A stretch of 64,000 nt of DNA from Atribacter laminatus. Its GTDB lineage: Bacteria > Atribacterota > Atribacteria > Atribacterales > Atribacteraceae. Position 1 is the first letter of the stretch. Every line of letters starts with the position of its first letter. Under the pieces are notes generated by a model. That model saw nothing but the letters and a program-made list of their open reading frames with translations, was not told the DNA's origin and searched no databases. The position numbers and the translations under genes were made by a program. The stretch spans positions 1,116,001 to 1,180,000 of the forward strand of contig NZ_CP065383.1 of assembly GCF_015775515.1 (NCBI RefSeq), written 5' to 3'. Of the stretch, positions 13,728 through 55,207 are shown in pieces.

Positions 13728-13825
13728 ATTGAAAGTCCTCCCTAGAGTAGGTACCCCCCCAAGTCTGTTAAGATAAAGATATCGATTTATATAATTTTCA
13801 TTATTGTGGGGGTCTTTCGGTAAAA

Positions 13826-14001: not shown

Positions 14002-14093
14002 TCGAAAATTTCACACCCAAGGTGTCATCCTGAGCGGTGCTTTCCCGCGTGAGGATCTCATCTTTTGTCTTTTTCCAGTATCCCAATTTCCCA

Positions 14094-14120
14094 AAAATTC
14101 AAGAATCAACGCCTTACCCC
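14094..14120 (-). repeat. Repeat B overlapping the MazF stop codon
   Basis: Plus-strand AATTCAAGAATCAACGCC TTACCCC, a variant of the repeat B core; the MazF stop codon (TTA on plus, 14114-14116) is part of it. Confidence 0.7.
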
Positions 14121-15498: not shown

Positions 15499-15599
15499 CA
15501 GGTGTGACAAAATTTGTATTATTCAAGAAAAGATGTAAAATAGAGTCAAAATACTGTCAAGAAAGTTAAATTATAAGTATTTGGGGTAGGTAATATACG

Positions 15600-15866
15600 G
15601 TGAAATTGCATATTACAATAGAAGTGTGGAAAAAAGGTCATTGGTATCTCGCAAGAACGCCCGAATTAGATTTTATTTCACAAGGGAGAACAAAACAAGA
15701 AGCAAAGGATAATCTTTTAGAAGTGTTACGGATACAGTTTGCAGAAATGAAAGATATGAACACCTTGGAAGATTATCTTATGGAATGTGGAATTCACATG
15801 AAAGACGATGATCTCATTTCTCCGCTGGAAGTAGTGGAGTGTGAAAAGTCAATAGTATCAATATAG
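15600..15866 (+). CDS. hicB: HicB-family antitoxin
   Basis: 88 residues with the partial RNase-H-like HicB fold: 'EVWKKGHWYLARTPELDFISQGRTKQEAKDN' across residues 7-37, the conserved hydrophobic core followed by 'G.T..EA..N'. There is no added C-terminal DNA-binding domain of the usual length, only about 25 residues. GTG start at 15600, eight bases after GGTAGG. It precedes the toxin gene by 2 bp; most hic loci have the toxin first, so the order is reversed here. Confidence 0.8.
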   Translation: MKLHITIEVWKKGHWYLARTPELDFISQGRTKQEAKDNLLEVLRIQFAEMKDMNTLEDYLMECGIHMKDDDLISPLEVVECEKSIVSI

Positions 15867-15868
15867 CA

Positions 15869-16099
15869 ATGCCGCGCATTACTCCAGTTGACTACAAAAC
15901 CCTCTTAAAAGTGTTCCAATTATATGGGTGTCAATATAAACGAAAAGAAGGATCCCATCATGTCCTCATTTATCCAGGTGCCAAAAGAGCAATTGTTATT
16001 CCAGAATATGATGAAATTGATGTTGAAATTATTAAAAACAATATGCGTACTGTGGGTATGAGCAGAGATCAATATTTTGAATTGCTTAAAAAAGTATAG
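15869..16099 (+). CDS. hicA: HicA-family toxin (mRNA interferase)
   Basis: 76 residues of the double-stranded-RNA-binding-like HicA fold: 'LLKVFQLYGCQYKRKEGSHHVL', where the His of 'GSHHV' is the catalytic residue, and a C-terminal '...DVEIIKNNMRTVGMSRDQYFELL' helix (residues 51-73) as in the family. It would cleave mRNA when free from HicB. Intact, 2 bp behind hicB. Confidence 0.85.
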   Translation: MPRITPVDYKTLLKVFQLYGCQYKRKEGSHHVLIYPGAKRAIVIPEYDEIDVEIIKNNMRTVGMSRDQYFELLKKV

Positions 16100-16510
16100 A
16101 ATAATAGCTCATGCAATTTGTATTAGCAAATACTTTTTCATCCCTACATTCGTTATTAAATAATCAATATCTGAAAGAGTTAATGACATTCATAAAGGCA
16201 AACAAGGAAGTAAGTATGATTTCTTTTGACTTCATCAATAATCTGTATAGCTATATATAGTCCAACCTGGGATGTTCCAGAGGTTCCGGGTCATAGTACC
16301 CCCAGGTTTTTTATTTTCACCCTCTGTTTTATACCCTCTACAAAAAGTGGTTAAAGGTAAGATAATCCGGCTCTCCAAAAATAGTATATTCGTCATGATG
16401 CATTTCCTGAACTTGGATAACAACTCTTTCAACACCAATAGTATAAGCCAGATAAAGCTACCGAGGGAAAACATTCTGAGAGGAGTCAGGTGGTTTCTAT
16501 CGGACGACGT

Positions 16511-16878
16511 GAGAATCCCATTTGGTGCTGTTGGCGTCATCCTGAGGATTCGTATTTCGAATCCGTGAGGATCTCATCAACTCAATTCGTCATTGCGAGA
16601 CCTGGTTTTTTGAGGTCGTGGCAATCTCATGAGGTTAATCTTTATTATTTATTCTCTTTTAAACCTGCGGACAGGATAATTCTAACCCCTACAATAAATT
16701 TAAAATATTGTCATCATAAGTCCGTATCTCTAAAATTCCCTCATTGAGAGAGGTTAGGGGGGTATGCCTTTCATCGGTCATCCTGAGGATTCGTATTTTG
16801 AATCGGTGAGGATCTCATCTTTTCATCTATTTCCAGTATCACAATTCCTCAAAAATTCAAGAATCAAGACCTAACCCC
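16511..16878. repeat. About 370-bp composite repeat block, copy 2
   Basis: Direct copy of 15129-15498 with small differences (hairpins C at 16536-16578 and 16777-16819, repeat B at 16853-16878). The stretch 16100-16510 before it holds no supported gene. The block is followed by CGGGGATTTCG and the 3' end of the NYN gene. Confidence 0.85.
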
Positions 16879-33800: not shown

Positions 33801-35318
33801 ATAACTCAACTTTCGCAGTTCAATAATAGCATTTTTTCTTTCAACCATGCTGGGAGACTATTTACAAAATAGAAGAGTAGCTCTTTGACTTTTTCTTCTG
33901 AAAGGACTAAAACCTGTTTTATGGTAGACTTCAGGAGCTCAAGAAGGAGAGTCAGTGCTTCCATAAGAGTGATATCCTGAATTTCATCATAGCAGGCATA
34001 GAAAAGCTCTCCAATGGTGCGGGGATCGGTGTTCCTTCGGGCAGCAACAGAGAGCATAATATACCGGATAAAGACGATACTAGTATGAGTCACCAGGGCA
34101 TCATAAGACCTGACATGAAACTCCCGAGCCAGTTTCAAGACCGATTTCACCATCTTGAAGAAGACATCCATCCCAGCGTTTCCCATAGAGGGTGACGATC
34201 TCGTCTTCAGAAAGAGACAGATCAGTTGAAAGAAGTGCCAACCATTGAGATTTTTGTTTTTCACTTCGGACAAAGACAATCCGAGCTAAAAGTGGTTTCC
34301 CAGTGAGATTGAGATTCACGACACCCGATCCAATGATATTGCCGTGTGGTCTTTTCTGAATTCTGGTGAATAGAGAGGAAAGAGCAAGAGCCTTTCCACC
34401 AAAAGAGGAGTAAATCTTTGGGGTGTTTTTGAGCATGCATACCACTGATAATCCTCGAGTAGCACATTTCCGGATGAGGGTGGGAAAGCTGAACCAACTA
34501 TCAAAGAGAATGGTTGAGACCAAAGGACAGTGTTTTACGGCTCCATCAAGGAGCTTCAAGAGTACATCAGGAGTCTTCTCCTGGGATTCTTTCCGAAGAC
34601 GAGCTCTTTTGCTTCGTCCATCAACGGAAGCATCCATCGGACAGAGCTGGTTTTCTTTTCGGTGGGAACTTAATAACGAAAAGGAAAAAGGAATGAAAGT
34701 GGCTCCATCAGTGAGCCCGAGGGTGAGCATCCGAAACCCACGGCTGAAGCGCTTGGTAGAATGGTCATAGAAACGAGAGAGACCTTCAACTTTCGAACTC
34801 CGAGGTCGTTCATAGGGAGAATCATCCACTACCCAGGCGTAGCGCTTCAGATTGCTAAAAGGAAAGAGGACTTCTGAGACTACTGTGGCACTCAAGAGGA
34901 AGAGGAATTTTCGCCAGCTGCCACTGGTCTGGTGGAGGAAACGGTAAAAAGTATCTTTCTTTCCCTCGAAAATGAGATTTTTAGAGCACAAGATACCAGA
35001 GATGTTTTTTCCGGTAAAGACCAGCAGAAAGATCATCTGGAAGATGTCTTTAACAGGGATTCCTTTTTCTTTGCGGATGGAACATTTTCGAAACAGTTGG
35101 TTCAATTTGAACTCCTTTACAAAGGAGGAAAACATGGGTAATAGAGTCCTTTCATTTTCCAAATTTTCTGGTAGGATAGTCATGAAGACACCTCTCTCTT
35201 TTTGGTGATTGGTTTTTTTCTCTAAGTCAATTCTACCAAAAAAGAGGGGTGTTTTCATTAAAAATCCCTTTAAAATCAAGGTTTCTCACCATTTATTTTA
35301 GTGCGAAAGTTGAGTTAT
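33801..35318 (-). mobile_element. IS4-like insertion sequence with 17-bp terminal inverted repeats
   Basis: About 1.5 kb between perfect inverted repeats ATAACTCAACTTTCGCA (33801-33817) and TGCGAAAGTTGAGTTAT (35302-35318). Contains one frameshifted transposase. No convincing target duplication in the AT-rich flanks. Inserted between the ankyrin and the ribokinase genes. Confidence 0.85.
33806..35279 (-). pseudogene. IS4-family DDE transposase, frameshifted near the catalytic Glu
   Basis: First frame (34101-35279) has the DDE parts 'YAWVVDDSPYERPRS' (first Asp) and 'STILFDSWFS' (second Asp), then runs to 'EIVTLYGKRWD' and shifts. The second frame (33806-34279) continues with 'DVFFKMVKSVLKLAREFHVRS' and the helical C-terminus. 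Together this is the Y-x2-R-x3-E-x6-K signature with the Glu region damaged: compared with the expected reading two bases are missing and the Glu has become Asp or is lost at about 34165. The element is probably inactive unless frameshifting is programmed. Confidence 0.8.
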
Positions 35319-37542: not shown

Positions 37543-39120
37543 GTTCGCAATTTCGCACCTTGAAAAAAGCCACCGGAGACTCCAAAATGAAGGTTGTACG
37601 AAACAAAAACTTCATCGAGGAGGAATATCCGATGGCTCAAAATAATCATACACCATATCTTTTAAAAATGCTCCTTGCATTCATGACTCAAACCTGATCC
37701 TCTCTATGCTAGGCTCGAGTGGTTAACCAATGAACTTATGAAACTAAAACTGAAAACAAAGTAGGGGCTCACCAAGGAGAGCATTGTTCAATCCGAATTA
37801 CCTATTTCTCTGGAACCCAAGCAAGACGATTTGATGCCCGATTCGGTACGATCTCCCTTCTGGTTCCAAAGCTGAGAAAAGGAGGCTCTATTCCTTTTTT
37901 TGTGACCGAAAGGAAACGCTCGGAACAAGCCCTCCTGAAAGGTGGTTCAAGAAGCCTTTATCAATGGTGTTTCCACCCGAAAGATGGAGCGCCTTGCTCA
38001 AAGCTTAGGGATTGAGTCCCTCTCTGCTGGTCAAGTATCAGAAATCACCAAAGACCTGAGTGATCAAGTGGAATGGTTCCGTACCCGTCCTTTAGAAAAA
38101 GAATATCCAGTCATTTGGGTTGATGCCCTCTACGAGAAAGTTCGCTGTGAAAGACACGTCATCAGCATGGCGGTAGCTCTCGTTCAGGGTCTGACCAGCG
38201 AGGGAAATCGAGAGATCCTGGCGGTCGAACCCCTGATAGCTTGAATCAGAAGACACTTATACTCATCTCTTTGAACAGCTTAAAAGACGAGGAGTGGAAA
38301 CCGTCTGGCTGTGTGCATCCATTGCTCATGCAGGGCTTAAAAATGCCATTCAGAAATCTTTCTGAGGATCAAGTTGGCAACGGTGTAAAGTACACTTTAT
38401 GCGCAACCTCCTTGTCCATATTCCCCATAAAGAAAAAGAATCTTTTGCTGCGAAACTGAAGCAAATCTGGAATCAACCGAACCAAGAGTGTGCAAAGCAA
38501 TATGCCCATTTACTCATCCAGGAATACCGAGATCGCTTTCTTCAAGCCATTGCTCTTTTAGAGGAAGGGCTAGAAGACTCGTTACAATTCCTGGCTTTTC
38601 CTCACCTTGACCAACGAAAGATCTCTTCGACCAACTCACTCGAGCAAGTTCATAAAGAGATTCGTCGCCGCACCCGAGTGGTAGAGGGATCTTTCCTACC
38701 ACTGATTCCTATCTCCGGTTGGTCACCAGTTATCTCATTGAGTATACGAAAAGATTTGGATGAAGAGTAAAAAATATATCAACTCTGAGGCGATTACCAA
38801 GCAACAAGTAGAGCTTCTAAAGATAGCCTAAGGAAAAAAAGAAAGTCAAAAGAAAAAAAGAGGCTGTGGATAGATGGACAACCCTGTGGGTTGACCACAG
38901 ATCCACAGCCCGACGACTCATGAATAGTTATTCACTAAAATACCAGAAAGAATTGACCAAATAGAAAGATTGTATTCTTCTCTTTGTTTATTTTCCATAT
39001 TCATAAAAAGGAGGTGAATCAATCGAGTTATTACTCAAAGAGAGATGACTTTTCATTCAAGTAAGGTCATCTCTGTGTTTAAAAAGAGTCTCCGGTGTTT
39101 GCTAAGAGTAAATTGCGAAC
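37543..39120 (+). mobile_element. Decayed IS256/mutator-type element
   Basis: Outer ends GTTCGCAATTT (37543-37553) and AAATTGCGAAC (39110-39120) are inverted, with further similarity inside (CCACCGGAGA against TCTCCGGTG). Between them lies a broken mutator transposase. The stretch 38770-39090 holds a hairpin (GGCTGTGGA...TCCACAGCC, 38871-38910) and no gene. The right boundary overlaps an IstB-like fragment, so the exact limits are uncertain. Confidence 0.5.
37632..38769 (+). pseudogene. IS256-family transposase, multiply disrupted
   Basis: Starts 'MAQNNHTPYLLKMLL' after GAGGAGGAAT, then frameshifts. 37942-38244 carries 'VWVDALYEKVR'-like sequence ('PVIWVDALYEKVRCERHVIS') with the first catalytic Asp. 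38399-38770 carries 'YRDRFLQAIALLEEGLEDSLQFL' and 'STNSLEQVHKEIRRRTRVVE' with the Glu region. At least three frames are needed to read through, so no enzyme is made. Confidence 0.75.
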
Positions 39121-39637
39121 ATTATTTGACACATACCTAACGAGGGCTTCTTTTGTTAAAGAAAAAGAAAACCTCATCTGCTTTGGACCAGTTGGGACTG
39201 GTAAGACTCACTGTGCGACAGCAGTGGGTGTGGAAGTCTGTCACCAGGGGAAAAGAGTCCGCTATGAGCGAACCGCTCATCTGGTGAATCAACTGGTTGA
39301 TGCCAAAGCCCGAGGAACGCTCACTCATTTTTTTAAAAAGCTCTCACGACTTGATCTTTTAATTTGTGATGAATGGGGATATATCCCTTTGGATCGGGAA
39401 GGAGTGAAACTCCTCTTTCAAGTCATCTCTGATTGTTATGAGAAAAGGAGCGTGATCATCACTACCAATTTAGAATTCAGCAAATGGAATGGAATTTTCT
39501 TTGATGATGTGATCACCAGTGCTATTCTTGACCGGTTGATCCATCATTGTCATCTTGTGGTATTTACTGGAAAGAGTTATCGTTTTAAAACATTCAAGTT
39601 TAAATCATTAATCTCAACTGGGGTGCTGGAATTTTAA
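39095..39637 (+). pseudogene. IstB-like ATPase remnant of a different IS21-type element
   Basis: 180 codons open. Walker A 'GPVGTGKTHCATAVG', Walker B 'LDLLICDEWGY' and 'ITTNLEFSKWNGIFFDD', 'AILDRLIHHCHLVVFTGKSYR' are clearly IstB, but of another subgroup than the two intact copies in this window. The N-terminal helical domain and the istA gene are missing, so the gene is truncated on the left. A second, shorter relic of its 3' end lies at 56128-56262. Confidence 0.75.
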
Positions 39638-40503: not shown

Positions 40504-41810
40504 TTAGATTTCCTGAATTATTTTAATCTCATCATTAGATAGATTAAATAAATGAAAAGTTAAGTTGTCTATTTCTCTTTCATAATATATTATATTCGCA
40601 TCTAATTTTTTTTGCTTTTCAACTAATATTTGATTTACTAGGTTTATAATTTTAACTGATATTTTCGAGTCAAAAAAAGGCATAGGTAGCTTTTCCAGGA
40701 AGTTAGTTCTATAACGCAGATAACCACCTCCCATATGCATACCACCAAAAAGAATTTTATACAATTCAGAAAATAATTTTGAATTTAGTAAACCTAAAAT
40801 ATATTTTATATCAATATCATTCGAAATTAATGTTCCAAAATATACTCCTCCTTGTGGAATAAACTTCATTTCATCATAGGTAGCTGTAATAAAAAGTGAA
40901 TCTTCAGCAATCAATATTTTTGGTTTAAATAATTTCGTGTATCTAACGGAATTTTTAGAAATTACTTTATCAAGGTTGATTTCTGAGATATATGAATCTT
41001 CAGTTATAAGTGTCCATCTCTTAAACTGGTATTGTTTAACAATTCCAAAATCTGATTTTATTTTATCTTCGTATTTAGTTGGAATTCTCAACCCCTCTGA
41101 AATACTCAGATAATTACCTAAACATGGTTCATTCTTTAATAAACTGAGAAGTATTTTTAATTTTTTTTGATTTATATTAATTGGGACAACAGATTCTGGA
41201 AATTGCATAAAGGTATTAATAGATAAGCAATATTTAGAATCATTTGAATTACTAAGGTTTCCAATGGATTGAGCTTCACGAACAATCATATTTAACTTTT
41301 GTTGGTTTTTTATAAAAAGGGAAATTATTGGATAATTCGATACATCATCAAATACTTCTAATTTTGATGTGCTTACAATTTCTCCCTGACTAATATTTTT
41401 AAAAATTAGATTTCTTAATATTTTTGCAGATGATGCTGCACAATATTTATTTGGGGTTATATAAGACAATATTCCTCTATTTTTTAAAATTTTAAAGCAT
41501 AATTCAAAGAAAAGATAATATAGATCATATTTGCCGACAGCTGCATTGAAATTTTCCTTAAAATAAGTTTTCTCATCTAAGGGTATATTATCAACCCTTA
41601 CATATGGTGGATTCCCAATAACTACATCAAAACCACCTTTCTTATGAAATACCTCAGAAAAATATAGTTTCCAAAGGAAAAAGGGTTTTATATTTTTACC
41701 AGAAGTGAATTCCAATAACTGCTTTTCTGTTGTTTCCAGGTTAAATCCAAATACCTTATATACTTTTTCTTTTTCTCTAAATATATGTATGTCACGTTCT
41801 TTTTCGTTTG
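40504..41810 (-). pseudogene. Eco57I-like DNA methyltransferase, C-terminal part (split by IS21 copy 2)
   Basis: The 3' portion of a gene whose 5' portion is at 44633-46826. It contains the catalytic motif IV 'VVIGNPPYVRVDNIPLDEKTYF', within residues 797-818 of the rejoined protein, the 'YDLYYLFFELC' helix and 'GILSYITPNKYCAASSAKILRNLIF', all typical of gamma-class N6-adenine methylases of type I/IIG systems, followed by a target-recognition-like domain ('GGVYFGTLISNDIDIKYILGLLNSKLF' and 'LRYRTNFLEKLPMP'). Without the SAM-binding N-terminal part it cannot methylate. An internal TTG at 41715 is not a real start. Confidence 0.9.
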
Positions 41811-41970
41811 GTAATCTGAGTAATATTTTGGGATAGACCCACTCGTATACTCAAAAAGGTCCACCATGAGTATCAAATAGGCCCACCTTGGTCATGGAGA
41901 GATCCACCTGACATATAATGAGGAAATACACTGTAAAGTGTAAATCTTCATTAGGAGGCTGATCAAATAA

Positions 41971-43524
41971 ATGATCAAGTATCGAGAAATTCTTCGGCTT
42001 CACAGCCAAGGTGTGAGTCAACGTGGCATTGCTGCCAGTTGCCAGTGCTCACGGACCACAATCCGTAATGTGGTTGAACGGGCAGAAAGGCATGAGATTT
42101 CATGGCCTTTCGATAAAAACATGTCGGATGCAGATCTTCAGGAACTCCTTTTTCCGGAAAAAAGGAGTCAGTCCAATCGAAAAATACCGGATTGCGAATA
42201 TGTTCATAAAGAAATGGCCAAAAGTGGTGTCACCTTAAGTTTGTTGTGGCATGAGTACCATGAACAATGCCGCTTCAATGGTGAAATCCCACTCATGTAC
42301 AGCCAATTCTGTCGGTATTATCATAAGTATGCCAATACCACCAAAGCCACTATGCGCATTAAGCGCAAACCCGGTGAAATGCTGGAAGTGGACTGGGCTG
42401 GAAAGACTGGTTTTATTGTTGATAATCTAACCGGTGAACTTATTCCAGCCTATATCTTCGTAGCGAGCCTATCTTGCAGCCAGTATGCCTATGTAGAAGC
42501 CTTCCTGTCAATGGATATGGAAAGCTGGGTCAATGCTCATGTTCATGCGTTCAAATACTTTGGTGGAGTGGCCAGAATCCTCGTGCCAGACAATTTAAAA
42601 ACCAGTGTAGATAAAGCCTCTCGACCAGATCCCAAGATTAATAGAACCTATCAAGAAATGGCCGAGCATTACGGGACAGCAGTCATTCCAGCCCGAGTCA
42701 GGCGCCCCAAAGACAAGCCCCATGCCGAAAGTACGGTGGGTATTATTTCCACCTGGATCATTGCCTCTTTGCGAAACCAACAGTTCTTTTCATTACACGA
42801 ACTGAATAGCGCCATCCGTCTTAAGCTGGAAGAATTCAACCAGAAACCTTTTCAAAAGAAGCCGGGAAGCAGGAAAAGCGCCTTCCTAGAAGAGGAAAAA
42901 GCACTGCTTTTGCCTTTGCCTACTTCCCCATACGAGCTTGCCACCTGGTCAACGGCGTCCGTACAGTACGATTATCACATAATTGTGGATAAAAATCACT
43001 ACTCAGTGCCCTATGAGTACATCCGGCATCAAGTGGAGGTACGTATAACCAGCAAAACTGTTGAAGTTTTTTACCACAATCATCGCATTGCTTCCCATAT
43101 TCGGATTCGCGGTCAGGAAGGCCAGATTGTCACGGTACCGGATCACATGCCAGAGAAACATAAACAGTACCTGGCTGTAAATGCTGATCATTTTAGGAAT
43201 TGGGCTGCTTCCATTGGACCTCATGCCGTCATTGTGGTGAATGCTCTTTTGTCAGCATCAAGAGTTGAGAAACAAGGTTACCGTTCTTGTACATCGCTTA
43301 TGAAACTCGCTGACAAGTATTCTTTATCCCGCTTTGAAGAAGCGTGCCAGCGGGCACTTTGTTACACGCCCAGTCCGAGTTTCAAAATCATCCAGACCAT
43401 CCTCAAAACCGGTCAGGATAGAATATCAGTCCAATCAGATCGACAAAAAGCGACAAAAGACAATCCCAACATCTACGGATTTGTCCGGGGTGCCGGCTAC
43501 TATGGAGGAAAAGACAATGATTAA
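41971..43524 (+). CDS. istA: IS21-family transposase IstA, copy 2
   Basis: 517 residues, apparently identical to the copy at 7677-9236 except for one missing Leu-Pro unit in the linker near residue 317. Helix-turn-helix, DDE integrase core and C-terminal domain are complete. Overlaps istB by 8 bp. Being near-identical to copy 1 implies a very recent move. Confidence 0.95.
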   Translation: MIKYREILRLHSQGVSQRGIAASCQCSRTTIRNVVERAERHEISWPFDKNMSDADLQELLFPEKRSQSNRKIPDCEYVHKEMAKSGVTLSLLWHEYHEQCRFNGEIPLMYSQFCRYYHKYANTTKATMRIKRKPGEMLEVDWAGKTGFIVDNLTGELIPAYIFVASLSCSQYAYVEAFLSMDMESWVNAHVHAFKYFGGVARILVPDNLKTSVDKASRPDPKINRTYQEMAEHYGTAVIPARVRRPKDKPHAESTVGIISTWIIASLRNQQFFSLHELNSAIRLKLEEFNQKPFQKKPGSRKSAFLEEEKALLLPLPTSPYELATWSTASVQYDYHIIVDKNHYSVPYEYIRHQVEVRITSKTVEVFYHNHRIASHIRIRGQEGQIVTVPDHMPEKHKQYLAVNADHFRNWAASIGPHAVIVVNALLSASRVEKQGYRSCTSLMKLADKYSLSRFEEACQRALCYTPSPSFKIIQTILKTGQDRISVQSDRQKATKDNPNIYGFVRGAGYYGGKDND

Positions 43525-44260
43525 TTCTACGACCATGAACAAGCTGCATGACATGCGACTCTCCGCTATGGCGGATGCTTTCAAACGCCAACTGTCTGAT
43601 GAGAAATATCAGGAGCTATCGTTTGAAGAACGGGTTGGTATTCTTGTTGATGTGGAATGGGCTAAACGCAGAAGCAATAAACTGCTCCATCTCATTAAAA
43701 AAGCAGATTTCCGCTATCCTCAGGCTAGCATTGAAGATATTGAATACCATGCCGACAGGAAACTAGATAAGGCACAAATCCTACGGCTATCTGGGTGCGC
43801 TTACATCCAGGAGAAACGCAACCTCATCATCATGGGTGCCTCTGGAAACGGGAAATCTTATGTTGCCTGTGCTTTTGGTATGGCGGCTTGTCGCAACTAT
43901 TATACCGTTAAGTATATCCGACTACCGGATCTTCTGGATGAACTGGCAGTGGCTCGAGGTGAAGGTGTCTATCAGATGGTGATGAAGAAGTACAAAAAGG
44001 TTGGCTTACTCATTTTGGATGAATGGCTCTTAACTCCACTTAAAGACACCCAGGCAATGGATCTCCTTGAGATCGTTGAAGCAAGACATCAGAATGCTTC
44101 TACTATTTTTTGCACCCAATTTGCTCCACGTGGGTGGCATGAAAAGATCGGCGAAGATACACTAGCAGATGCCATTCTTGATCGTATTGTCCATGATTCC
44201 TATACCATCCTTATTGACGGCAAAGTGTCAATGAGGGAACGACATGGGATTAAAAATTGA
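43517..44260 (+). CDS. istB: IS21-family helper ATPase IstB, copy 2
   Basis: 247 residues, apparently the same protein as the copy at 9229-9972 (Walker A 'GASGNGKS', Walker B 'LLILDEW'). The start was chosen as for copy 1 by the GGAGGAAAAG ribosome-binding site. Active pair with the overlapping istA. Confidence 0.94.
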   Translation: MINSTTMNKLHDMRLSAMADAFKRQLSDEKYQELSFEERVGILVDVEWAKRRSNKLLHLIKKADFRYPQASIEDIEYHADRKLDKAQILRLSGCAYIQEKRNLIIMGASGNGKSYVACAFGMAACRNYYTVKYIRLPDLLDELAVARGEGVYQMVMKKYKKVGLLILDEWLLTPLKDTQAMDLLEIVEARHQNASTIFCTQFAPRGWHEKIGEDTLADAILDRIVHDSYTILIDGKVSMRERHGIKN

Positions 44261-44632
44261 GCCAGAACTAAGTAATTAAGAGTGTATTTATGTCTGCCGG
44301 TTAAAGAGGCTGATGGATAGTACCGACCTCTTGTGGACAACCCTCCGCTTCGTGGACGACCAAAACACGTTGTTCACGCTCTCCACAGCCTCGGCATCTG
44401 GTGTTCTATAGAAATCTTAATCTTGTTCCTTCAAACTACCCATCAAAGAGTACTATTCTCAGAACAGTAAAACTCATGATTCGGAAAAGTGGGCTTATAG
44501 CTATTGTGGTTCATTTAAACCGTCATATATAGCTATGGAGTTAACGTATGCACCTAGTGGATTTATTTGGTGCACTCGATGGGTCTAAAACATCATACTA
44601 CTGGGTTTATCATAAGACAATAAACAGTAATC

Positions 44633-46826
44633 TTGAATAAGTATCTTCTATATTTTTCAATTTTTTAAAATAATCAGATTTTTGAATCTTTAGTTTCAAT
44701 TCAAATATTTTTATTAACAAATCTTCAATTTCTTTTTTCAAAAATATTTTTCTTGTAATATTAGATTCATTTATGAACTCATATTTTTTAATTTGAAACT
44801 GAGTAATAATTTCATCAAATTCATTTTTAAATAATTTATTATTCTTTTCCTTAGATTCATCAAAATTAATCCCCATAAATTCAGAAATTAAACTATTCCC
44901 TTGCATAATGCGATAATCCAAATTTGGTAATGGCTTTATGTTTCTAATATTTTCTTCATCCACAACTAATGAGAGCCACAACCTCAATTTTGCTATTTCC
45001 ACAGCTCCCGGATCAATGTCTACACCATAAAGAGAGTGTTCGATACAATGTCGCTTAAATTCATAAGGAGACCGTTGGTTATCCTTGATGAAATCAGAGA
45101 GCACATTTCTAGTTTTGACAATTTCATTCATCATTCCAACCAGAAAGGCACCCGAACCCACTGCTGGATCGCAAACAGTAATATCAGCAAGAGCTTGATC
45201 TATTTGAGAAGCATTTTTTCTAATACTTTCAGGGAGAAGATAGGTGTATCTTTCTGTTTCTTTTCCATTTCTTTCAATCCAGGCTTCATTTTCTTTAATT
45301 CGCTCACCATAAATAATTAAGGTTTCGATATCTTTTTTTGGGATTTCTGGTTTTTCCCTATGTTCTAAGACTAAATCTAATTGTCCCTTTTTAAATCTGT
45401 TTCCAAATAAATCAAGATTTTTATCTCCAAGTTTTTGATAATATGTCTTATCGGGATTTAACTCGGTATATAAATAATTAATCAAGCTTTGTTGACACAT
45501 ATAATGCACAATCTCACGGGGAGTATAATAAACACCATATTGTTTATTAAACTTATTTTCCTCTCCTTTTTTACCACTCTTTAAGGCTTTTTTATAATCT
45601 TCAAAGTTATCTGGACGAATCGCATTAAATTTCTCATAAGCTTTTCCAAGTAATTCTGGATCAATAGCTACTTCCTTTTCCAAGGGTTCATCTTCTTTTA
45701 CAGTAAAATTATAGCGATCGAAAATATCAAGAATACCATCCCCAGTATCTCCTTCTTTGGTAGGATTTGAATTGGAAAAGAGCTCATTGGGTAATAATAT
45801 ATCGGTATGTACCCAATCATATCCACCAATCGGATCAAAAAGTCCGCCATTGAGGAAGGGAATTCGACAATTGAATTTGCTAAAGTAATCATCATAAGAG
45901 CTGTGATCGGTTGAGAGAGCTTCGTAAAATAAAGGCTCTAAAATATCATTGAAAAAGTTATGATAATTTGCATGTTTTTTTTCAAACAATTCACGTAAAA
46001 AATGCTTGGATCCACTTCCCCAATCATCATCACGACCTACTCCAAACCAACCTTTTTTTTGCAAAAAGTAGAGAAATACAATCTGACCCAAAAGCTTTTT
46101 TGAGAAATTTACTGTATCAATATTTTTAGATTCAAAATCAGCCGCTATTTTCGGATCTTTTTTTATAATTTTGTCGAGTTCCTCTTTTGTACGGATGAAA
46201 AGTTCGCGATATTTAATAAAGAATTCTCTGGTAACAGTTTCAATATCAAATGCTTTCTCAATTTCATCAAGAGTCGGTGACTGTTCATCGTTCTCCAAAA
46301 TTCCGATCAGGCGACTTTTAGCAGTGTGGCATTTTTCATTCTCACCCACTAAAAAAGACCATCGGCGGACAGGAGTAAATACCTCCTTGACTTTTGTTTT
46401 TCCTGATTCAGTTTGGTGTGTTGTATAATCCATCTTCACTAAGGAAAAGCGCCAATCTTTTTTATCCGGGGGAACAAAGGCGACTAAAGCGGCATCTTTC
46501 AGATCGCCTCCTCGGCTTCCATTTAAATACCTCGCTACAAAATTCCGTTGCATGGTTCGAGCACGTTCGAGAGATGTTTCTTTTTGAAGGGTAATGATAA
46601 GAATATCAAGCGTTTTTTCGCTATTTTTATATTTTCCAATTCGTTCTAAAGATTTAATATATTGTTTATAAGCATCAGGGATATAATTTCCCTGGTAAAT
46701 GAAGCGAGCTTCATCAAAAAAGTTCAAAAGATTTTTAATAAATTTGTTAAAAGTGGCTTTATCAAAAGGATTTTCAAACGTATCTTTAATAAGCTGTAAA
46801 GCTTGTTTCCTATCCATTTCAATCAC
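44633..46826 (-). pseudogene. Eco57I-like DNA methyltransferase, N-terminal part (split by IS21 copy 2)
   Basis: The 5' portion of the gene, about 731 native codons before the target duplication; read through into the IS it ends at 44610 after five foreign residues. Residues 1-540 form the large helical N-terminal part of type-IIG/PglX-like proteins ('NKQYGVYYTPREIVHYMCQQSL' precedes the methylase fold). SAM motif I is 'DPAVGSGAFLVGM' at 553-565, followed by 'LYGVDIDPGAVEIAKLRLWL'. The catalytic NPPY lies beyond the IS. Joining the two parts across one GTAATC gives 3507 bp, a continuous 1168-residue frame. Its start overlaps the helicase stop by 8 bp. Confidence 0.92.
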
Positions 46827-49800
46827 CCGTTAAATACATTGAAAGAATAATTTCTCGTTTTCCGATAACAGAAGAATTTTGTTCAGCATAATGACTTTGT
46901 AATAAACGTTCTGGAATGATAGTTTGGAGAACAGCTAACACTTTGTAAGGATTCATCAATTCATTGTTTAGTTTTTCTAAAGATTTTAAGGTTTTTTTGA
47001 TCGTTTGTTTGGGTAATCCCCCTTCCTCAAGCTGAATCATAACATTTTTGAGATATAACTCTTGAATATCGGTTAATTTTTGTGAATTCTTTAAAGTTAA
47101 TTTGAGGATGCGCAATAAATCACTGGAACTATCGCGACCTCTTCGTTTTTGGGAATTTATTATTTCTTCAGTTGTTGCAAATATAAAAGCCTCTTTGTTT
47201 TTATCTAAGAGATCATAAAACTGTTCTGAAAGATTTTTCTTTTTTTCTTCTGGCTTACTTTCAAGTAATTGAGCTGCGGTCATAAAATCCAATTCTTCAG
47301 TTTTATCATTAATAGAGCTTATAAAGAATTTTTGTAGTTTTCCTCGACGGAAATAGGTGAGAAGTGAATTAGCATGCGAAAATTTTTGTTTGGCAGTTCT
47401 TGCTTTTTTAGGAAGCTGTTTTATTTTTTCAAATAGATCGGGATTATTTTCACGGATATCACGGATAATCTGGAGATATTTCAAATCACTTTCTTCTTCA
47501 TCCTCACCTTCAATTGTTTTCTTTGATATTAAGCGGTCAAAAAGCTCATGTGATCCAATTGGTTCACCTTCGGTTAATAGTTCGGCATCTCCACCAAGTA
47601 AGGTTAAAAATGAATTTATTTTCCCTTCAGCCGCTTCTCTTAATTTTATCTGATCATTTGATTGTTTGGTTGGAAAGAAATTAAAGGTGTAGATTGTATC
47701 GTGGGGTGTATCAACACGATTAATTCGTCCCACCCGTTGCATCATCCGGGTTGGATTCCAAGGAATATCATAGTTAATTACTACATTTGCGCGGTGTAGG
47801 TTAACTCCTTCGGAAAGCACTTCAGTGGATATAAGTATACGGAAATCATTTTTTTTGTAGCGAGCCCGAGCATCAAAATTTTCAATAACTTTGTCGCGAA
47901 TAGACTCACCTGAATCACCAGTGTAAAGAAGGACCTTATTGGCATATTCTTGGTTTAAATGAGTATAAAGATAATGGGCAGTTTCTTTGGATTCAGTAAA
48001 AATAATAAGATGATTCTTTTTTAGAACTTCATTGTTTGATAATTCAGTTTTGAATTTTTGCAACTTTGGATCACGGGTAATATTTTGCCATAATTTCTCT
48101 ATTTCCAAGAGAATCTCAAAATCACTTTGCAAATCATTTTTGAATTCTTCTCGAAAATCTTCGCTTTTATATTTATCAGCCTTTCCTTCATCTATTAATT
48201 GTTGGATGGCTGCGTCATCATCGTTTTCAAGGAGATCAAAAATTTTATTGATATGTTTTTTGCTAATATACACAGAGCCATTTTCATATTCTTTAATATA
48301 CATTCTATAAGATTGAATAAATCTTTGTATTGATTTCCGGAAAGCAAAAAAACTACTTTCTAATCTTTTAACCAACAAAATTTTCATAAAACGTCCCATG
48401 TTAATTTGCGACTGAGCTTCAAGTTGGTCAATTTTACCTTTAAAGTATAGTAAGGGTGTATATCGTGAATATCGAAAATGATTGGTAATCAATTCGATCG
48501 TTTTATTAAAAATTTCATCTTCTTTATCATTAAGTTCATAAAATAAGGGTTCTGGTTTTTTGACTTCAGGAAATTTAAGACCTCGTTCTTGGATGTCCTT
48601 TTTAAAATACTTTTCAATTTCGGTTCTCGTGCGCCGAACCATTAGATATTTCAAAACCTTTTCTCGAATTTCTCGAGCATTTGATTTGACTATTTTAATA
48701 AATTCTTCATAATTGCCTTTTCGGTCTAAACCTTTCAGTTTTTTATCCAACTGTTGAAAGAAAGATTCTAGATCAGGTAGATTGGGTATTGTACTTTTTT
48801 TAGCTTTCTGAAAGAGTTTTAGTAAACTAAGAATGTCTTTTGGAGAATTATTGTATGGAGTAGCAGTAACGAGAATAACTCTTTTCCCCCGGCAGATTTC
48901 TGCTAATTTCTCGTAAGAAATGGTACTCTCAGTTCGGAATCGATGAGCCTCGTCTATTATTATATTGGAATATTTTTCCAGATTTCTGCTTAAAAGGTCA
49001 TCTAATTTTCCAATTGATTCATAATCTGCATGGACCCGAAAGTCAGAGAAAACATTTTTCCAAGAACCAGGATTAGATTCATTCAGCAATACAGGTGGAG
49101 CAATGACCAGAGATCGTCCATCCAACTGACCAGCCAGCATGGCAGATATATAGGTTTTTCCTAAACCAACAACATCGGAAATAAAAACTCCACCGTATTC
49201 AAGAAGAATTTTTTTAGCATTTAATACTGCTTGTTCCTGATACTCAAGCTTTATAAAATTCTCCGGTAAATAGTGAATAAAAATATCATCAGTTTGACTC
49301 AACTCATCTTTAAAATATTCATATAGAAATTTTAAATATAATTCATAAGGGGTTATATTTTGAGTTAACCAGGTTTTTTCTTGAATTGTCTGAGTATATT
49401 TTTCACTTACATCTACTGCTTCAGCCCATAATTCTTCAAATTTAGCTTTAGCAAAATCGTAATCACTTCTATTTTTGAGTTCCACATTAAATTCTAAATT
49501 ATCGATTAACCCAGCTTGAGTAAAATTACTTGAACCGGTAATAACTCGTCCAGTATCTCTATCGCCTTCTTTAAAAGTCATAATATATAATTTGGCATGA
49601 ATATTCTTTGATGGATAGGCTCTAAGCGCTAATTTGCCGCTTTTAATCCACTCAATAAATTTATTGGTTCCCTCTTCAACGAGATGAGTGTCTTCTGATT
49701 CTTCCATTTCACATTGTGCTAATTTTTCTATTTTCTTTTTAGTTTCAGCATGAGAAAAATCTAGGACTTGCTGTTCGGTTTTATTCGCTGTTTCTACCAT

Positions 49801-50007
49801 ATCAAGGGTTTCTTGGCAGGTATTAATGCCTATGAGAATTCGTATTTTTTTTGTTGAATCAAGAGAAGGATAGATTGCGTGAAAACCACTTGAATAGAAA
49901 TAACCAACCAGACAGTCAAAAAAATCTGTGCTTTTAATAAGAACTTTAAATCTCTCTTTTAAGTTTTGATTTGCTTCATTGGTAATAAAAGATAAATCAG
50001 TATTCAT
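46819..50007 (-). CDS. PLD-nuclease/SNF2-like helicase fusion of a restriction-type defence locus
   Basis: 1062 residues. Residues 20-170 carry one phospholipase-D-type motif: 'HAKLYIMTFKEGDRDTG' (His137, Lys139) and 'GSSNFTQAGL' (158-167), as in PLD nucleases that work as dimers. A superfamily-2 helicase follows: Walker A 'GLGKTYIS' (281-288), DEAH (352-355), 'VTATPYNN', and the C-terminal 'STEVLSEGVNLHRANVVINYD' and 'QRVGRINRVDTPHD' (arginine finger). A helical tail of 250 residues remains unassigned. Fused or adjacent PLD plus helicase with a methylase is the layout of NgoAVII/CglI-type and related ATP-dependent restriction systems. The gene is intact and first in the operon; the methylase behind it is destroyed. 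Confidence 0.88.
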   Translation of the reverse strand: MNTDLSFITNEANQNLKERFKVLIKSTDFFDCLVGYFYSSGFHAIYPSLDSTKKIRILIGINTCQETLDMVETANKTEQQVLDFSHAETKKKIEKLAQCEMEESEDTHLVEEGTNKFIEWIKSGKLALRAYPSKNIHAKLYIMTFKEGDRDTGRVITGSSNFTQAGLIDNLEFNVELKNRSDYDFAKAKFEELWAEAVDVSEKYTQTIQEKTWLTQNITPYELYLKFLYEYFKDELSQTDDIFIHYLPENFIKLEYQEQAVLNAKKILLEYGGVFISDVVGLGKTYISAMLAGQLDGRSLVIAPPVLLNESNPGSWKNVFSDFRVHADYESIGKLDDLLSRNLEKYSNIIIDEAHRFRTESTISYEKLAEICRGKRVILVTATPYNNSPKDILSLLKLFQKAKKSTIPNLPDLESFFQQLDKKLKGLDRKGNYEEFIKIVKSNAREIREKVLKYLMVRRTRTEIEKYFKKDIQERGLKFPEVKKPEPLFYELNDKEDEIFNKTIELITNHFRYSRYTPLLYFKGKIDQLEAQSQINMGRFMKILLVKRLESSFFAFRKSIQRFIQSYRMYIKEYENGSVYISKKHINKIFDLLENDDDAAIQQLIDEGKADKYKSEDFREEFKNDLQSDFEILLEIEKLWQNITRDPKLQKFKTELSNNEVLKKNHLIIFTESKETAHYLYTHLNQEYANKVLLYTGDSGESIRDKVIENFDARARYKKNDFRILISTEVLSEGVNLHRANVVINYDIPWNPTRMMQRVGRINRVDTPHDTIYTFNFFPTKQSNDQIKLREAAEGKINSFLTLLGGDAELLTEGEPIGSHELFDRLISKKTIEGEDEEESDLKYLQIIRDIRENNPDLFEKIKQLPKKARTAKQKFSHANSLLTYFRRGKLQKFFISSINDKTEELDFMTAAQLLESKPEEKKKNLSEQFYDLLDKNKEAFIFATTEEIINSQKRRGRDSSSDLLRILKLTLKNSQKLTDIQELYLKNVMIQLEEGGLPKQTIKKTLKSLEKLNNELMNPYKVLAVLQTIIPERLLQSHYAEQNSSVIGKREIILSMYLTGD

Positions 50008-51193
50008 TTAACCCTTATTCATACTATAGAAAGATGTTTTTCGATTTTTAACATAGGTTTAAGTATAAGATTATATTACTAAATTTTAACAAACTTTGAA
50101 AGATAAAAGTATTTAATTTTGGATTTATGAAAAATTCTTTACATTATTTATTTTTTACTTAGTTTTATTTGAAGAAGCCTGGATTGGGAAAGTGGTAAAG
50201 ATTTAAGATGAGATCCTCACGGCTTCGAAAACCGAAGCCTCAGGATGACACCTTCATTGTCTGATGAGTGCAAAAATTTGGGGTCAGGTCTTGATTCTTG
50301 AATTTATAATAAAGGCTGTGGTTTAGAGGAATTAAGAATAAAGCTTAAAGATGAGATCCTCACGCCCTCAAAAAGCGAGGGCTCAGGATGACTGATTAAA
50401 GGCACACCCCCCTAACCCCCCTCAATGGGGGAATTTATAAGATGGTGTTTTCAGGATAGAGTATTACTTAAAAAAACCTCACGATCTATTTTTTATTAAC
50501 CTTTTCTAAAAAAGAGATGGGCGCTGTTAAAAGTAAAAAAAGAAATCATGAGGAATGTTTTAAATCACTCTTAATGAAAATTTTTTAAACCTAATTTTAT
50601 TAAGCTACATTTAGCTTCCATTATTTCTTTAATTACTCTCAGCACAACTCAGGGATCAGGCCTTGATTCTTGAATTTATAAAAAAGGCTGTGGTTTAGAG
50701 AAATTAAGAGTAAAGCTAAAAGATGAGATCCTCACGCCCTTAGGTACTGAGGGTGCGAGGGTGTGCGATGGGGAGAAAAAAGAAAAAACAAAAGGGCTCA
50801 GGATGATGGCTTTATTAAATCTCTTGTAGGGGCTTGATTTAACGTGCCCGCTGTTTTTCAAATCCGGTTCAATATTAGATTATTTTTGACCGTTTACAGT
50901 ATTACCTAGATAAGAATCAACCTCCCCTCTTTAATAAGAAGGGTAAGAGGGGTTTTTTTATTCTGCTCACGATTCACTGCTCACAACTCGCTGTTTTTGG
51001 GAATGAGATTGCCACGTCGTCTAACCATAAGATGGTTAGTCTCCTTGCAATAACGGATTTAAATTCCTTCTCCCTTGATGGGAGAAGGTCAGGATGAGGG
51101 TGAAAGTTCAGATTGAGATCCAGGTTAGGTGTTTTTTAATTAAGCCTGGATGAGGTGCTCAGGTTCCCCCCTCACCTTAATCCTCTCCCACCA
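50008..51193. repeat. Repeat-rich spacer, hairpins C, repeat B and direct CCCTC-type repeats
   Basis: No supported gene. Hairpin C copies at 50207-50249, 50350-50392 and 50722-50807 (GATGAGATCCTCAC...CAGGATGA), repeat B reversed at 50279-50304 and 50652-50678, G/C-rich stretches (CACCCCCCTAACCCCCCTC, 50405-50423) and the CCTTCTCCC-TTGATGGGAGAAGG palindrome at 51068-51090. Confidence 0.75.
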
Positions 51194-51440: not shown

Positions 51441-51572
51441 GAATTGTAGTAAAAATTATAGGCTTGGTTTGAGGAAAGCGATCTTGATACTCCTGATTCA
51501 TCCCAAGAGTTTCCTCTTAAAATTGTATAATAGACTCCTTCGTGAACGGTTAATGAAAATTCAGTCTGACCA

Positions 51573-53693
51573 TCAAGGCTTTAAAATTTGACCAACTACA
51601 TCAATTGGGAGGTCATTAATTGGATTGCCATTGGGATTAAAGAGGTTATGTTCCTCGATAGTTAAACCGATAGTAGTACCGTCTTTAACTGCCGCATGCA
51701 GATTTCGTGGTTTCACCGAGTCCCCTATATTCACTACATCAATCCCGGCTGCTTTAATTTGTTGATATAAGTCGATATTAGGCTTGGTCCAGCAAGTAAC
51801 CACATGATCATAAGGTATATTTACCTGGTTAGAACTTTTATCGGCTAAAAAAAGTTCGTTTTCCTTTATTTCATTGATTTTGCTGTTGGTATAGATTTTC
51901 ACCGGATATTTGAAAGGTTTCGAAGTTAAGGCTTCAGCATCAGTTTGTTGAAATCTCTTGAAAAGAACATATTTATGAATAACTTCAATTTTTGAGCCGA
52001 ATTCTTTCTGATCGGTTATGATAGTCACTTCTTTCCCAATGGAAGCTAAATAAGCAGCGGTATCGGCTGCAGCATAATGGTCACCCCATATGATAATCTT
52101 GGTGCCCTTCAATGGTAGGGATTTGCGATCTTGAGGATGAAATTCACAAGCTACTTTCGGACAGGTCATCACTTTCTCAAAAGGGATGACAACCTCTTTT
52201 AAACCATGAACTTCTGGTACATATGATTGTGCTCCAGTGGCATTAATGACCAGATCAAAGGAACTGAGCTCTTCAATGCTAGGCGATGTTCTGAGTTGAA
52301 CTTCAATGCCCAAAACAGCAATCTGGTACCTGATCCAATCGGCATACCATTTCATCTTTTCTTTTCCATTGACCAGACAACAGCCAAGAATCGCTCCACC
52401 AAGTTCTCCGCTTTTTTCAAAGAGAGTCACGAAATGACCTCGTTCGTGCGCAACTCGGGCGGCTTCTAAACCAGCTGGTCCTCCACCAACAACGGCAATA
52501 TGGACAGGAGCAGTGGTTTTTTTCTTTATTTCAAGATGTTGATTATTACAGGAAGGATTGATGGCACAAGTCACTTCTTTTTTGGCTAAAATTGAATCCG
52601 ACCAACAGCCAGTCAAACAGGATATGCACCGACGAATGGCTCGGGTTTTCCCATATTTCGCTTTGAGCGGCCAATAGGGATCAGCTAATAACTGACGAGA
52701 AAGGCCGATCAGGTCAGTTTTTCCTTCAGCTAATATTTGCTCGCAGTATTCTGGATTTCGAAGAGAATGACTGTTAATAACCGGAATTTTGACCTGCTTT
52801 TTAATGGCTTCTGAAGCATATATTGTCCAACCTTCAGGATAGTACATCGGATCAAAACCAGCTCCTGGTCTTTCCTGGATACTTTGGCTCAAATCGAGTG
52901 CAGCTGCTCCGGCGTTTTCAAATTCCTTCGCAACTTTAACCGATTCAATGAGGTCTCGACCTCCTGGAACCCATTCGTCAACCGAGTAACGAATAAGAAC
53001 TGGGAAGTTTTTCCCGCATTTCTTTTGAATTGAATCCACAATAGCTAATGGCAAGCGGAGACGATTTTCAAAACTTCCTCCAAAACGGTCATTTCGTTTA
53101 TTGAAATAAGGGCTTAAGAATTGTGATAAAAGGTAACCATGCGCGGCATGGAGCTCTACCGCATCAAATCCGGCTTGCATTACTCTCCAGGCTGCTTCGG
53201 AAAAAAGACCTACCAGGCCTATCACTTCGTCGGTTGATAATGCCTGAACTGTTTTGTTAATCGCAATGGCATCTGCATTAAAAAATGTTGGATTTTGTGA
53301 CCAGGGAATCAGGCCTTCACAATTATTGGAGGCAATATTATCCTGTTTTGACAGTGAAACCTGTCTCCCCGGATGCTGAAGCTGAACAGCACATTTTGCC
53401 CCGTAACGGTGCATTGATTCCGCCAACCATGCCAACCCAGGTATATAATGGTCCTCGTCTACAACCATATTGGATCCCGTTGAACGACAGCTTTTTTCAT
53501 CAACAGAAGTTCCTCCTACCACGATAAAACCGGTACCGCCTTTTGCTATTGTCGAATAATGATTAATATTTTTTTCACTCACCGAACCGTCGATATGGGA
53601 TGAACTGGTTATGGTGGGAACGTGACAAATCCGGTTGGGAACCAAAATTTCGCCGATCAAGATGGGTTCAAAAAGGCAATGGAACTTTTCCAT
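51573..53693 (-). CDS. NADH:flavin oxidoreductase, FadH/old yellow enzyme type, copy 2
   Basis: 706 residues, the same domain order and Cys ligands (356, 359, 363, 376) as copy 1; the two differ at about 18 positions by eye, mostly in the N-terminal barrel (for example Val121 to Ala, Asp124 to Asn, Gly229 to Asn, Glu244 to Gly). Catalytic and cofactor residues are unchanged, so both could be active. Duplication covers about 2.3 kb, from roughly 51527 to 53802, where an IS interrupts the upstream repeat A. Substrate unknown. Confidence 0.88.
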   Translation of the reverse strand: MEKFHCLFEPILIGEILVPNRICHVPTITSSSHIDGSVSEKNINHYSTIAKGGTGFIVVGGTSVDEKSCRSTGSNMVVDEDHYIPGLAWLAESMHRYGAKCAVQLQHPGRQVSLSKQDNIASNNCEGLIPWSQNPTFFNADAIAINKTVQALSTDEVIGLVGLFSEAAWRVMQAGFDAVELHAAHGYLLSQFLSPYFNKRNDRFGGSFENRLRLPLAIVDSIQKKCGKNFPVLIRYSVDEWVPGGRDLIESVKVAKEFENAGAAALDLSQSIQERPGAGFDPMYYPEGWTIYASEAIKKQVKIPVINSHSLRNPEYCEQILAEGKTDLIGLSRQLLADPYWPLKAKYGKTRAIRRCISCLTGCWSDSILAKKEVTCAINPSCNNQHLEIKKKTTAPVHIAVVGGGPAGLEAARVAHERGHFVTLFEKSGELGGAILGCCLVNGKEKMKWYADWIRYQIAVLGIEVQLRTSPSIEELSSFDLVINATGAQSYVPEVHGLKEVVIPFEKVMTCPKVACEFHPQDRKSLPLKGTKIIIWGDHYAAADTAAYLASIGKEVTIITDQKEFGSKIEVIHKYVLFKRFQQTDAEALTSKPFKYPVKIYTNSKINEIKENELFLADKSSNQVNIPYDHVVTCWTKPNIDLYQQIKAAGIDVVNIGDSVKPRNLHAAVKDGTTIGLTIEEHNLFNPNGNPINDLPIDVVGQILKP

Positions 53694-53802
53694 AATGAAA
53701 GTCCTCCCTAAAGTAGGTACCCCCCCAAGTCTGTTAAGATAAAGATATCGATTTATATAATTTTCATTATTGTGGGGGACTTTCGGTAAAAACTCAAGGC
53801 CT

Positions 53803-55207
53803 CGAATTGAATCACTTAAAATCTTGATGAACTCCTATCGTTGCCTCACCTAAAAATCTTGATATAAACTATTCTACCTCCAGGTGATTTTTTTAAAACA
53901 GGAGGTAACAAAATGGAGCTCACCATGAATACCAGAAGGGAAATCATTAAGAAAATGGCACCCGAGTATCAAAAAGCCACTAAGAAAGAAAAAAGAAAAA
54001 TCTTAAATGAACTCGTCCATCTCACTGGATACACCCGAACGTATGCCTCCTGGCTCCTTTCTCATCATGGACGGAAAGTCTATCTCACCGGACAAGACGG
54101 CAAAAAATATCGAATCATTGGGTCCATCACCAAGGTAAAAAGGAACCGAAAAAAAATCTATGATGAGGAAGTCCTTTCTTCTTTAAAAAAGATCTGGCTC
54201 ATCTTTGACTGTCCCTGTGGGAAAAGACTCGCTCCCTCACTTCCTTGGATGATCGAAAAACTGGAAAAGCATGAGGAACTGGTTCTCTCCCAAGAGGCGA
54301 GAAGGAAGCTCCTGGCCATATCTACAGCCACCATTGATCGGCTTCTCCAAAAGGAAAAACGAAAGTTCACCCCCATCTCCCGGTCCTACACCAAACCCGG
54401 GACTCTCCTTAAACACCAGATTCCAGTTCGTACCTTTGCCGATTGGGATGAGAAAAGACCAGGATTCTGTGAAATTGATCTGGTTGCCCACGATGGTGGA
54501 AACCCCAGTGGGGATTTCTGCCAAACTCTTGATGTGACCGATGTCTTGACAGGCTGGACCGAAACTCAAGCGGTCAAAAACAAAGCTCAGAAATGGGTCT
54601 TTGAAGCCTTAGCACAGATCCGAGCACGGCTTCCCTTTCCTCTTTTAGGAATCGATTCCGACAATGGAGGAGAATTCATCAATAACCAACTCATTCGGTA
54701 CTGTCAAAAAGAACAGATCACCTTCACCCGGTCTCGACCTTCTAAAAAGAATGATAACTGTTATGTCGAACAAAAGAACTGGACTGTGGTGAGAAAAACG
54801 GTTGGCTATTGTCGCTATGAGACCGAAGACGAACTCCTCCTTCTCAACCAACTCTATTCCCTTCTTCGTCTCTATACTAACTTCTTCCAACCGGTTACCA
54901 AACTGGTTTTCAAAGAGCGAGTGAATAGTAAAGTCAAGAAACACTATGATGAAGCCAAAACTCCACTGATGCGAGTTCTTGACGCCTCATCGATTGATAA
55001 CTCCCTCAAGCAATCCTTAAAAGACCAATATGAAGAACTCAATCCAGCCGAACTCAAACGACAGATTGTCAAAATACAAAACCAATTGATCGAGATGGTG
55101 ACCTTGAAAAATGATTCAATTCCTTACCCCAAGGAGGTGAATTTGGTATAGAATTTTAAATGAGGCATCGAATCCATTTCATCAAGATTTTTAGGTGAGG
55201 CATCACT
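53803..55207 (+). mobile_element. Intact DDE-type insertion sequence with double-box ends
   Basis: 1405 bp flanked by a 5-bp target duplication GGCCT (53798-53802 and 55208-55212). Each end carries two copies of an about 20-bp box (CACCTAAAAATCTTGAT and variants); a 22-bp perfect inverted repeat TGCCTCACCTAAAAATCTTG-AT joins left inner to right outer box. It inserted into the repeat A upstream of reductase copy 2, so it arrived after that duplication or on this copy only. A truncated relative lies at 25510-25982. Confidence 0.88.
53913..55151 (+). CDS. Integrase-core (rve) DDE transposase
   Basis: 412 residues. N-terminal helical DNA-binding part ('NELVHLTGYTRTYASWLLS', residues 29-47), then the RNase-H-like core: 'GFCEIDLVAHDGG' (first Asp), 'LLGIDSDNGGEFINN' (second Asp) and 'NCYVEQKNWTVVRKTVGY' (Glu), i.e. 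a D-D-E triad. Family probably ISNCY or IS481-like; not resolved. ATG follows GGAGGTAAC. Intact and likely active. Confidence 0.88.
   Translation: MELTMNTRREIIKKMAPEYQKATKKEKRKILNELVHLTGYTRTYASWLLSHHGRKVYLTGQDGKKYRIIGSITKVKRNRKKIYDEEVLSSLKKIWLIFDCPCGKRLAPSLPWMIEKLEKHEELVLSQEARRKLLAISTATIDRLLQKEKRKFTPISRSYTKPGTLLKHQIPVRTFADWDEKRPGFCEIDLVAHDGGNPSGDFCQTLDVTDVLTGWTETQAVKNKAQKWVFEALAQIRARLPFPLLGIDSDNGGEFINNQLIRYCQKEQITFTRSRPSKKNDNCYVEQKNWTVVRKTVGYCRYETEDELLLLNQLYSLLRLYTNFFQPVTKLVFKERVNSKVKKHYDEAKTPLMRVLDASSIDNSLKQSLKDQYEELNPAELKRQIVKIQNQLIEMVTLKNDSIPYPKEVNLV

Follow-up and report, generated by a model that had tools for sequence, protein, structure and literature searches.

We read the locus at 40504 to 50007 of the analysed stretch of DNA (the window, 64,000 nucleotides) as a two-gene ATP-dependent restriction-modification (R-M) system, a split and PLD-armed analogue of the Type ISP and Type I enzymes, and put the probability of this reading at roughly 0.78. 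One gene encodes a PLD nuclease fused to an SNF2-type motor, and the other encodes an N6-adenine methylase (MTase) that carries the target-recognition domain (TRD). The copy in the window is a broken member of this two-gene family, as its methylase, TRD included, is not intact. The module is widely spread. Its broad kind is known, and its packaging was not found catalogued. Our search covered the open-access literature, without REBASE or subscription journals, and found no paper that names this exact pair; such an absence is not proof.

The helicase gene and its parts occupy the following positions in the window:

46819 to 50007, minus strand: PLD(HKD)-SNF2 helicase with C-terminal tail (motor-nuclease), 1062 aa, intact
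49414 to 50007, minus strand: PLD nuclease domain, residues ~1–198, HxK-GSSN (H137, K139, N161)
47641 to 49245, minus strand: SNF2-type motor, residues ~255–789 (Walker A K284, DEAH 352–355, motif VI 757–764)
46822 to 47640, minus strand: family-specific C-terminal tail, residues 790–1062, without known domain

An earlier note on this DNA had described a single-motif PLD nuclease and an SNF2-like helicase joined in one polypeptide, and the domain searches agree. PLDc_2 matched residues 54–194 with 34.0 bits against a Pfam cut-off of 27, while SNF2-rel (residues 328–472, 44.0 bits) and Helicase_C (residues 652–765, 78.6 bits) both scored above their Pfam cut-offs. The PLD part holds a single HxK...GSSN motif. 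The reading frame is unbroken and aligned end to end with those of 76 relatives. Residues H137, K139, S159, S160, and N161 of the PLD part were invariant in all 77 sequences, as were K284 (Walker A), D352/E353/H355 (DEAH), and Q757/R761/R764 (motif VI) of the motor. Because these catalytic residues are invariant, we consider the gene undecayed. Conservation extended along the whole length of the protein and was weakest in the last 150 residues. The large C-terminal tail, also pointed out earlier, is conserved among the relatives (residues ~790–1062). It consists mainly of helices, has one short beta segment, and is closed by a conserved REVILS-like motif. Searching Pfam and the PDB with an HMM of the tail returned chance-level matches only and no family. 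An AlphaFold2 model of the helicase had a mean pLDDT of 83.4, and a fold search with it retrieved RapA, SauUSI (rank 4), and other SNF2 motors. We make no claim about domain placement from these hits because the global TM-scores were low. The HsdR subunit of Type I R-M systems has a C-terminal helical domain, and by analogy the tail of the helicase may dock to the methylase.

Genome neighborhoods gave evidence for a functional pair. Scanning 84,980 genomes with a helicase profile yielded at least 580 relatives, of which the best 80 were analyzed (42–79% identity over the best segment). These best 80 fall in 26 named phyla plus unassigned records, in both Bacteria and Archaea. Together with loci of the window's own phylum, the best relatives made up 87 scored loci. 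One further locus, L037, did not pass the score filter for the helicase and was left out; a methylase is present there too. A methylase of the same family lay downstream on the same strand in 81 of the 87 loci, and in the other six the contig ended before any methylase. The two genes were at most 110 nt apart in 52 of the 81 loci, 16 of which showed a 4-bp overlap, and were separated by more than 250 nt in the other 29. In a reverse test, the methylase was used as the query, without the helicase, in 297 genomes of another phylum. This gave 18 methylase loci in 16 genomes, and every one of the 16 loci with upstream sequence had a PLD-helicase there. Two distant methylase-like matches (L188 and L189, E ~1e-34) were left out of this count. 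In neither search direction do the homologs lie mostly beside unrelated genes. The pairing is not a chance one; it is obligate, and the conserved two-gene organization of an ATP-dependent R-M type that the earlier note had proposed is borne out.

No third gene was constant across the surveyed loci. Families such as AlbA_2/schlafen, Fic, BRO-N, and RhuM occurred in the gaps and just downstream of the pair, and gaps longer than 250 nt often hold one of these genes (L041, L042, L043, L046, L050, L111, and others). Type I R-M operons are interrupted by similar genes. Defense genes were also among the neighbors, namely GajA/GajB-like genes, McrBC, ApeA, and GmrSD. At one locus (L034, 949–6331), genes for an EVE-McrB-like AAA protein, for McrC, and for an anti-restriction protein of the ArdC type come after the pair, which sets restriction systems for modified and unmodified DNA side by side. 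Phage records contained partial, distant matches only and no full copy. Plasmids carried distant relatives (24–37%), several of them adjoining a methylase gene. The helicase tree matches the phyla only loosely, which suggests, short of proof, that transfer has been frequent.

The second gene of the pair is present in the window as two fragments:

44610 to 46826, minus strand: N-terminal fragment of the N6-adenine methylase with the N-domain, MTase motif I, and GVDI, called from GTG
40504 to 41715, minus strand: C-terminal fragment of the methylase with NPPY and the TaqI-like TRD, called from the first TTG

The methylase lies downstream of the helicase gene and belongs to the Eco57I/PglX-like N6-adenine MTases, with DPAVGSGAF as motif I. 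Its N fragment contains 728 native residues followed by a short run into an insertion sequence (IS), and the native codons of the C fragment extend to 41816. The 8-bp overlap with the helicase gene reported earlier holds for the GTG start at 46826. It does not hold for the start that is kept in relatives, an ATG at 46817 (MDRKQA..), and thus hangs on the GTG, because the conserved ATG falls 1 nt past the helicase stop. The structure of the methylase was modeled for the intact relative L031 (mean pLDDT 77). In a fold search with this model, CamA was the best match, followed by BrxX/PglX (~1,100 alignment columns), MmeI, DrdV, and BpuSI; the resemblance to BrxX/PglX, MmeI, and DrdV runs along the length of the model.

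The hits to MmeI, DrdV, and BpuSI, together with a score of 1042 bits for the N part against the PADLOC model REase_MTase_IIG, favor another account of the pair. The methylase could be a self-sufficient Type IIG restriction-methylase that cuts through a nuclease at its N-terminus, in which case the PLD-helicase would play an accessory part and degrade or clear away the cut DNA. We hold this account to be unlikely, since the methylase was never seen without the helicase where upstream sequence exists. The N-domain itself also speaks against it. Among its polar residues, those without any variation are arginines (R88, R121, and R150), and an acidic residue at position 72 is kept in 26 of 32 sequences with no conserved lysine nearby. 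A sequence search of the PDB with the N-domain gave no match, and no conserved PD-ExK lysine was seen in it. Type IIG/IIL folds do match the model, and on this structural basis the N-domain could be a second nuclease.

We also weighed whether the pair is a branch of a multi-gene system (DUF499-centered Type-2 BREX-related, DISARM, or PbeABCD) whose other genes have been lost or displaced. HKD-Snf2 helicases pair with a methylase or other modification genes in those systems too (PMC12839542, PMC10853773), and the best PADLOC matches of the helicase were C3a139 'HKD+Snf2' (164 bits) and DrmD (116 bits). This origin is nevertheless improbable, as the survey showed no constant third gene and the DUF499-centered and DISARM systems fit poorly. 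Nothing like a constant CxC ABC-ATPase or DndE-like partner, the mark of PbeABCD and CxC-ABC systems, stood out in the general survey of neighbors. The DUF499-centered system resembles our pair in that a single operon encodes an HKD-Swi2/Snf2 fusion together with an N6-MTase (PMC12839542), but it needs DUF499 and DUF3780, both of which are absent from the window's genome. Among 30 pair-carrying genomes, a DUF499 match occurred in 3 (2 over cut-off) and DUF3780 in 1. In genome G065, a genuine DUF499/DUF3780 locus and the two-gene pair coexist at separate sites. The helicase of that DUF499 locus scored 1494 bits against the PADLOC model PLD_Helicase, compared with 86 bits for the window helicase, and the two proteins are only ~20–27% identical. 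The window helicase scored 148 bits against NF042964, for which the cut-off is 1100. With its partners missing and the helicase scores low, the DUF499/DUF3780 system was ruled out.

Comparison with other defense systems gave similar results. Two class 1 DISARM models of the DrmD family gave 132 bits (cut-off 610) and 80 bits (cut-off 950) for the window helicase, and we do not take the locus for DISARM. Neither drmA nor drmB recurred beside the pair among the 25 commonest neighbor families. PglX/BrxX of BREX matches the methylase model over nearly its full length, but here the partner is a PLD-helicase, and no other BREX gene recurred among the same 25 families. As the earlier note said, the locus is no exact fit for the standard layout of type I, type III, or DISARM. 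The resemblance to NgoAVII/CglI that it suggested was not supported. Those systems also restrict with a PLD nuclease and an ATP-driven helicase, but they carry them on separate proteins, whereas the window has one fused chain. Kinship with them was ruled out by this fusion and by an RE_NgoFVII score of 23.2 bits, below the cut-off of 23.8.

The position of sequence specificity was read from patterns of conservation. Methylase conservation was 0.28–0.74 over most of residues 1–750, with a variable linker at 451–550, and fell to ~0.15–0.2 at residues 801–1000. Across 42 complete pairs, helicase identity correlated with identity over methylase residues 1–750 (r = 0.757, Mantel p = 0.0005) and showed no correlation with TRD-region identity (r = 0.003, p = 0.47). 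Loci with 75–95% helicase identity had a TRD identity of ~21%. Conversely, the TRDs of L061 and L086 are 61% identical, with helicases at 48%. The TRD of the window is ~24% identical to those of relatives, and the N part of its methylase is 54–71% identical to the nearest ones. An N part that tracks the helicase and a TRD that varies independently are the pattern left by an exchangeable recognition domain in the methylase, and the helicase would then be a generic motor-nuclease.

This arrangement bears on a further alternative, that of a Type IV enzyme like SauUSI. The PLD-helicase would then cleave modified DNA unaided, would have the methylase as a mere neighbor, and would still be active here. 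SauUSI is a characterized protein with the order N-PLD-helicase-tail in one chain (PMC7913695). Like the window protein, it combines an N-terminal single-motif PLD, an SF2 motor, and a C-terminal domain, and it ranked high in the fold search. The earlier note could not match the order of the fusion. Given the SauUSI precedent and the PLD-Snf2 fusions already known in DUF499 and CxC-ABC systems, this order is not novel. As an account of the locus, however, a SauUSI-like enzyme is very improbable. SauUSI has no methylase partner and reads modified DNA by its own TRD, whereas the window tail has no Pfam or PDB match and pairing with one methylase family is obligate in both search directions. The hypervariable recognition region, moreover, is on the methylase and not on the helicase.

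The two-gene R-M reading accommodates these observations through a division of labor. The methylase chain, composed of the N-domain, the Eco57I/PglX-like MTase, and the variable TaqI-like TRD, would recognize a DNA site and mark self DNA by methylation, and the PLD-SNF2 protein would serve as the restriction subunit. We infer that the latter would be recruited via the methylase to unmethylated sites, with the helical C-tail as a putative contact in the complex. The SNF2 motor would drive translocation, and cleavage would occur upon pairing of two single-HxK PLD domains. In Type ISP enzymes (LlaGI and LlaBIII), a nuclease is N-terminal to the motor in one unit with an N6-adenine MTase and a TRD (PMC4666363). 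The window pair shares with them the helicase-like motor, the N6-adenine MTase, and the TRD, which would likewise act as a unit. A Type ISP enzyme, however, is a single chain that carries an Mrr-type nuclease, while the window has two genes and a PLDc_2 nuclease. In Type I R-M, the restriction subunit (nuclease, motor, and helical tail) and the modification subunit are separate. The two-gene family resembles Type I in this separate restriction subunit and in the Fic/RhuM/BRO/AlbA-type genes that intervene at some loci, but it lacks HsdS, its TRD is fused to the MTase, and its nuclease is PLD rather than PD-ExK. HsdS (PF01420) matches in the genome were located at 2.02 and 2.56 Mb only, and the window spans 1.12–1.18 Mb.

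In the window, the methylase is interrupted by an IS element with the following features:

41817 to 44626, no strand assigned: IS21-family insertion, 2810 bp, 1 of 8 near-identical genome copies
41811 to 41816, no strand assigned: target-site duplication GTAATC, left copy, 6 bp
44627 to 44632, no strand assigned: target-site duplication GTAATC, right copy, 6 bp
41971 to 43524, plus strand: istA-type transposase
43334 to 44260, plus strand: istB-type ATPase (ORF as listed)

The system had been called decapitated, and it is: the IS21-family element, flanked by the 6-bp duplication, splits the methylase between motif I and NPPY. Joining the flanks by script, as in the empty site, gave one open frame of 1165 aa with the junction after residue 728. 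The near-identical copies of the element are spread over a 3.10-Mb genome, and a second one lies in the window at 7519–10338 (99.8% identical). Since the joined frame is undecayed and the copies are near-identical, the insertion looks recent. Activity of the split methylase by fragment complementation, which would leave the system working, is about as improbable as a SauUSI-like enzyme, because, although both fragments are open and undecayed and join in frame, 2.8 kb of IS with genes facing the opposite way parts the C fragment from the operon promoter, and with motif I and NPPY on different fragments both would have to be expressed and folded.

After the insertion, motif I sits on a different fragment from NPPY and the TRD. 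Methylation and recognition are thereby most likely lost, and the helicase, though intact, is probably silent. Two outcomes had been offered earlier, a silent helicase or one that attacks self DNA. We favor the silent state because the TRD is on the methylase, no second copy of the window's TRD is detectable in the genome, and the combination of a broken methylase and an intact helicase recurs in two relatives. In L115, a transposase ORF lies within the methylase N-domain with later frameshifts, and in L173 the methylase is truncated. A helicase that cut self DNA without its methylase should be lethal in both. This argument from survival applies to relatives that were gathered by helicase match, a sampling that favors intact helicases, and that are mostly MAG contigs, in which some frameshifts may be assembly errors.

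We tentatively propose, at slightly worse than even odds, that the pair constitutes an uncatalogued, very widespread class of ATP-dependent R-M systems. Such a class would combine a constant PLD-SNF2 motor-nuclease with a PglX-like methylase/specificity subunit whose TRD is freely exchanged between lineages. One motor would then be re-aimed by a one-domain swap, and the two halves would sit in databases unlinked or mis-typed. If so, a restriction system of at least 26 named phyla of bacteria and archaea has been hidden because its methylase counts as a Type IIG enzyme that stands alone and its helicase has no full-scoring defense model; PADLOC gave no full-length or full-scoring model for it. 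The pair would also offer a clean two-chain setting for the question of how a motor-nuclease is licensed by the subunit that recognizes and methylates, and its modular TRD might be given new targets. The copy in the window, split by nature, would be a ready-made case for asking whether loss of the methylase leaves the restriction subunit harmless.

The region surrounding the locus is insertion-rich. Transposase-like ORFs and an istB-like remnant lie nearby at 53913–55151, 33806–35279, and 39095–39637. Two duplicates of ~2.3 kb (11542–13836 and 51509–53802) are 97.3% identical and ~40 kb apart, and each bears an NADH:flavin oxidoreductase-like gene. A palindromic repeat of 36–40 bp (GAGATCCTCACG-variable stem-CTCAGGATGAC) occurs at 50206–50250 and 50350–50395 on the plus strand and also at 14025–16790. 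The genome contains 133 copies of this repeat, with several alternative inner stems, compared with 0 for a reversed-pattern control. The listed copies lie mostly on the minus strand below ~0.9 Mb and on the plus strand above ~1.0 Mb, and this strand switch suggests that the orientation of the repeat is tied to the direction of replication.
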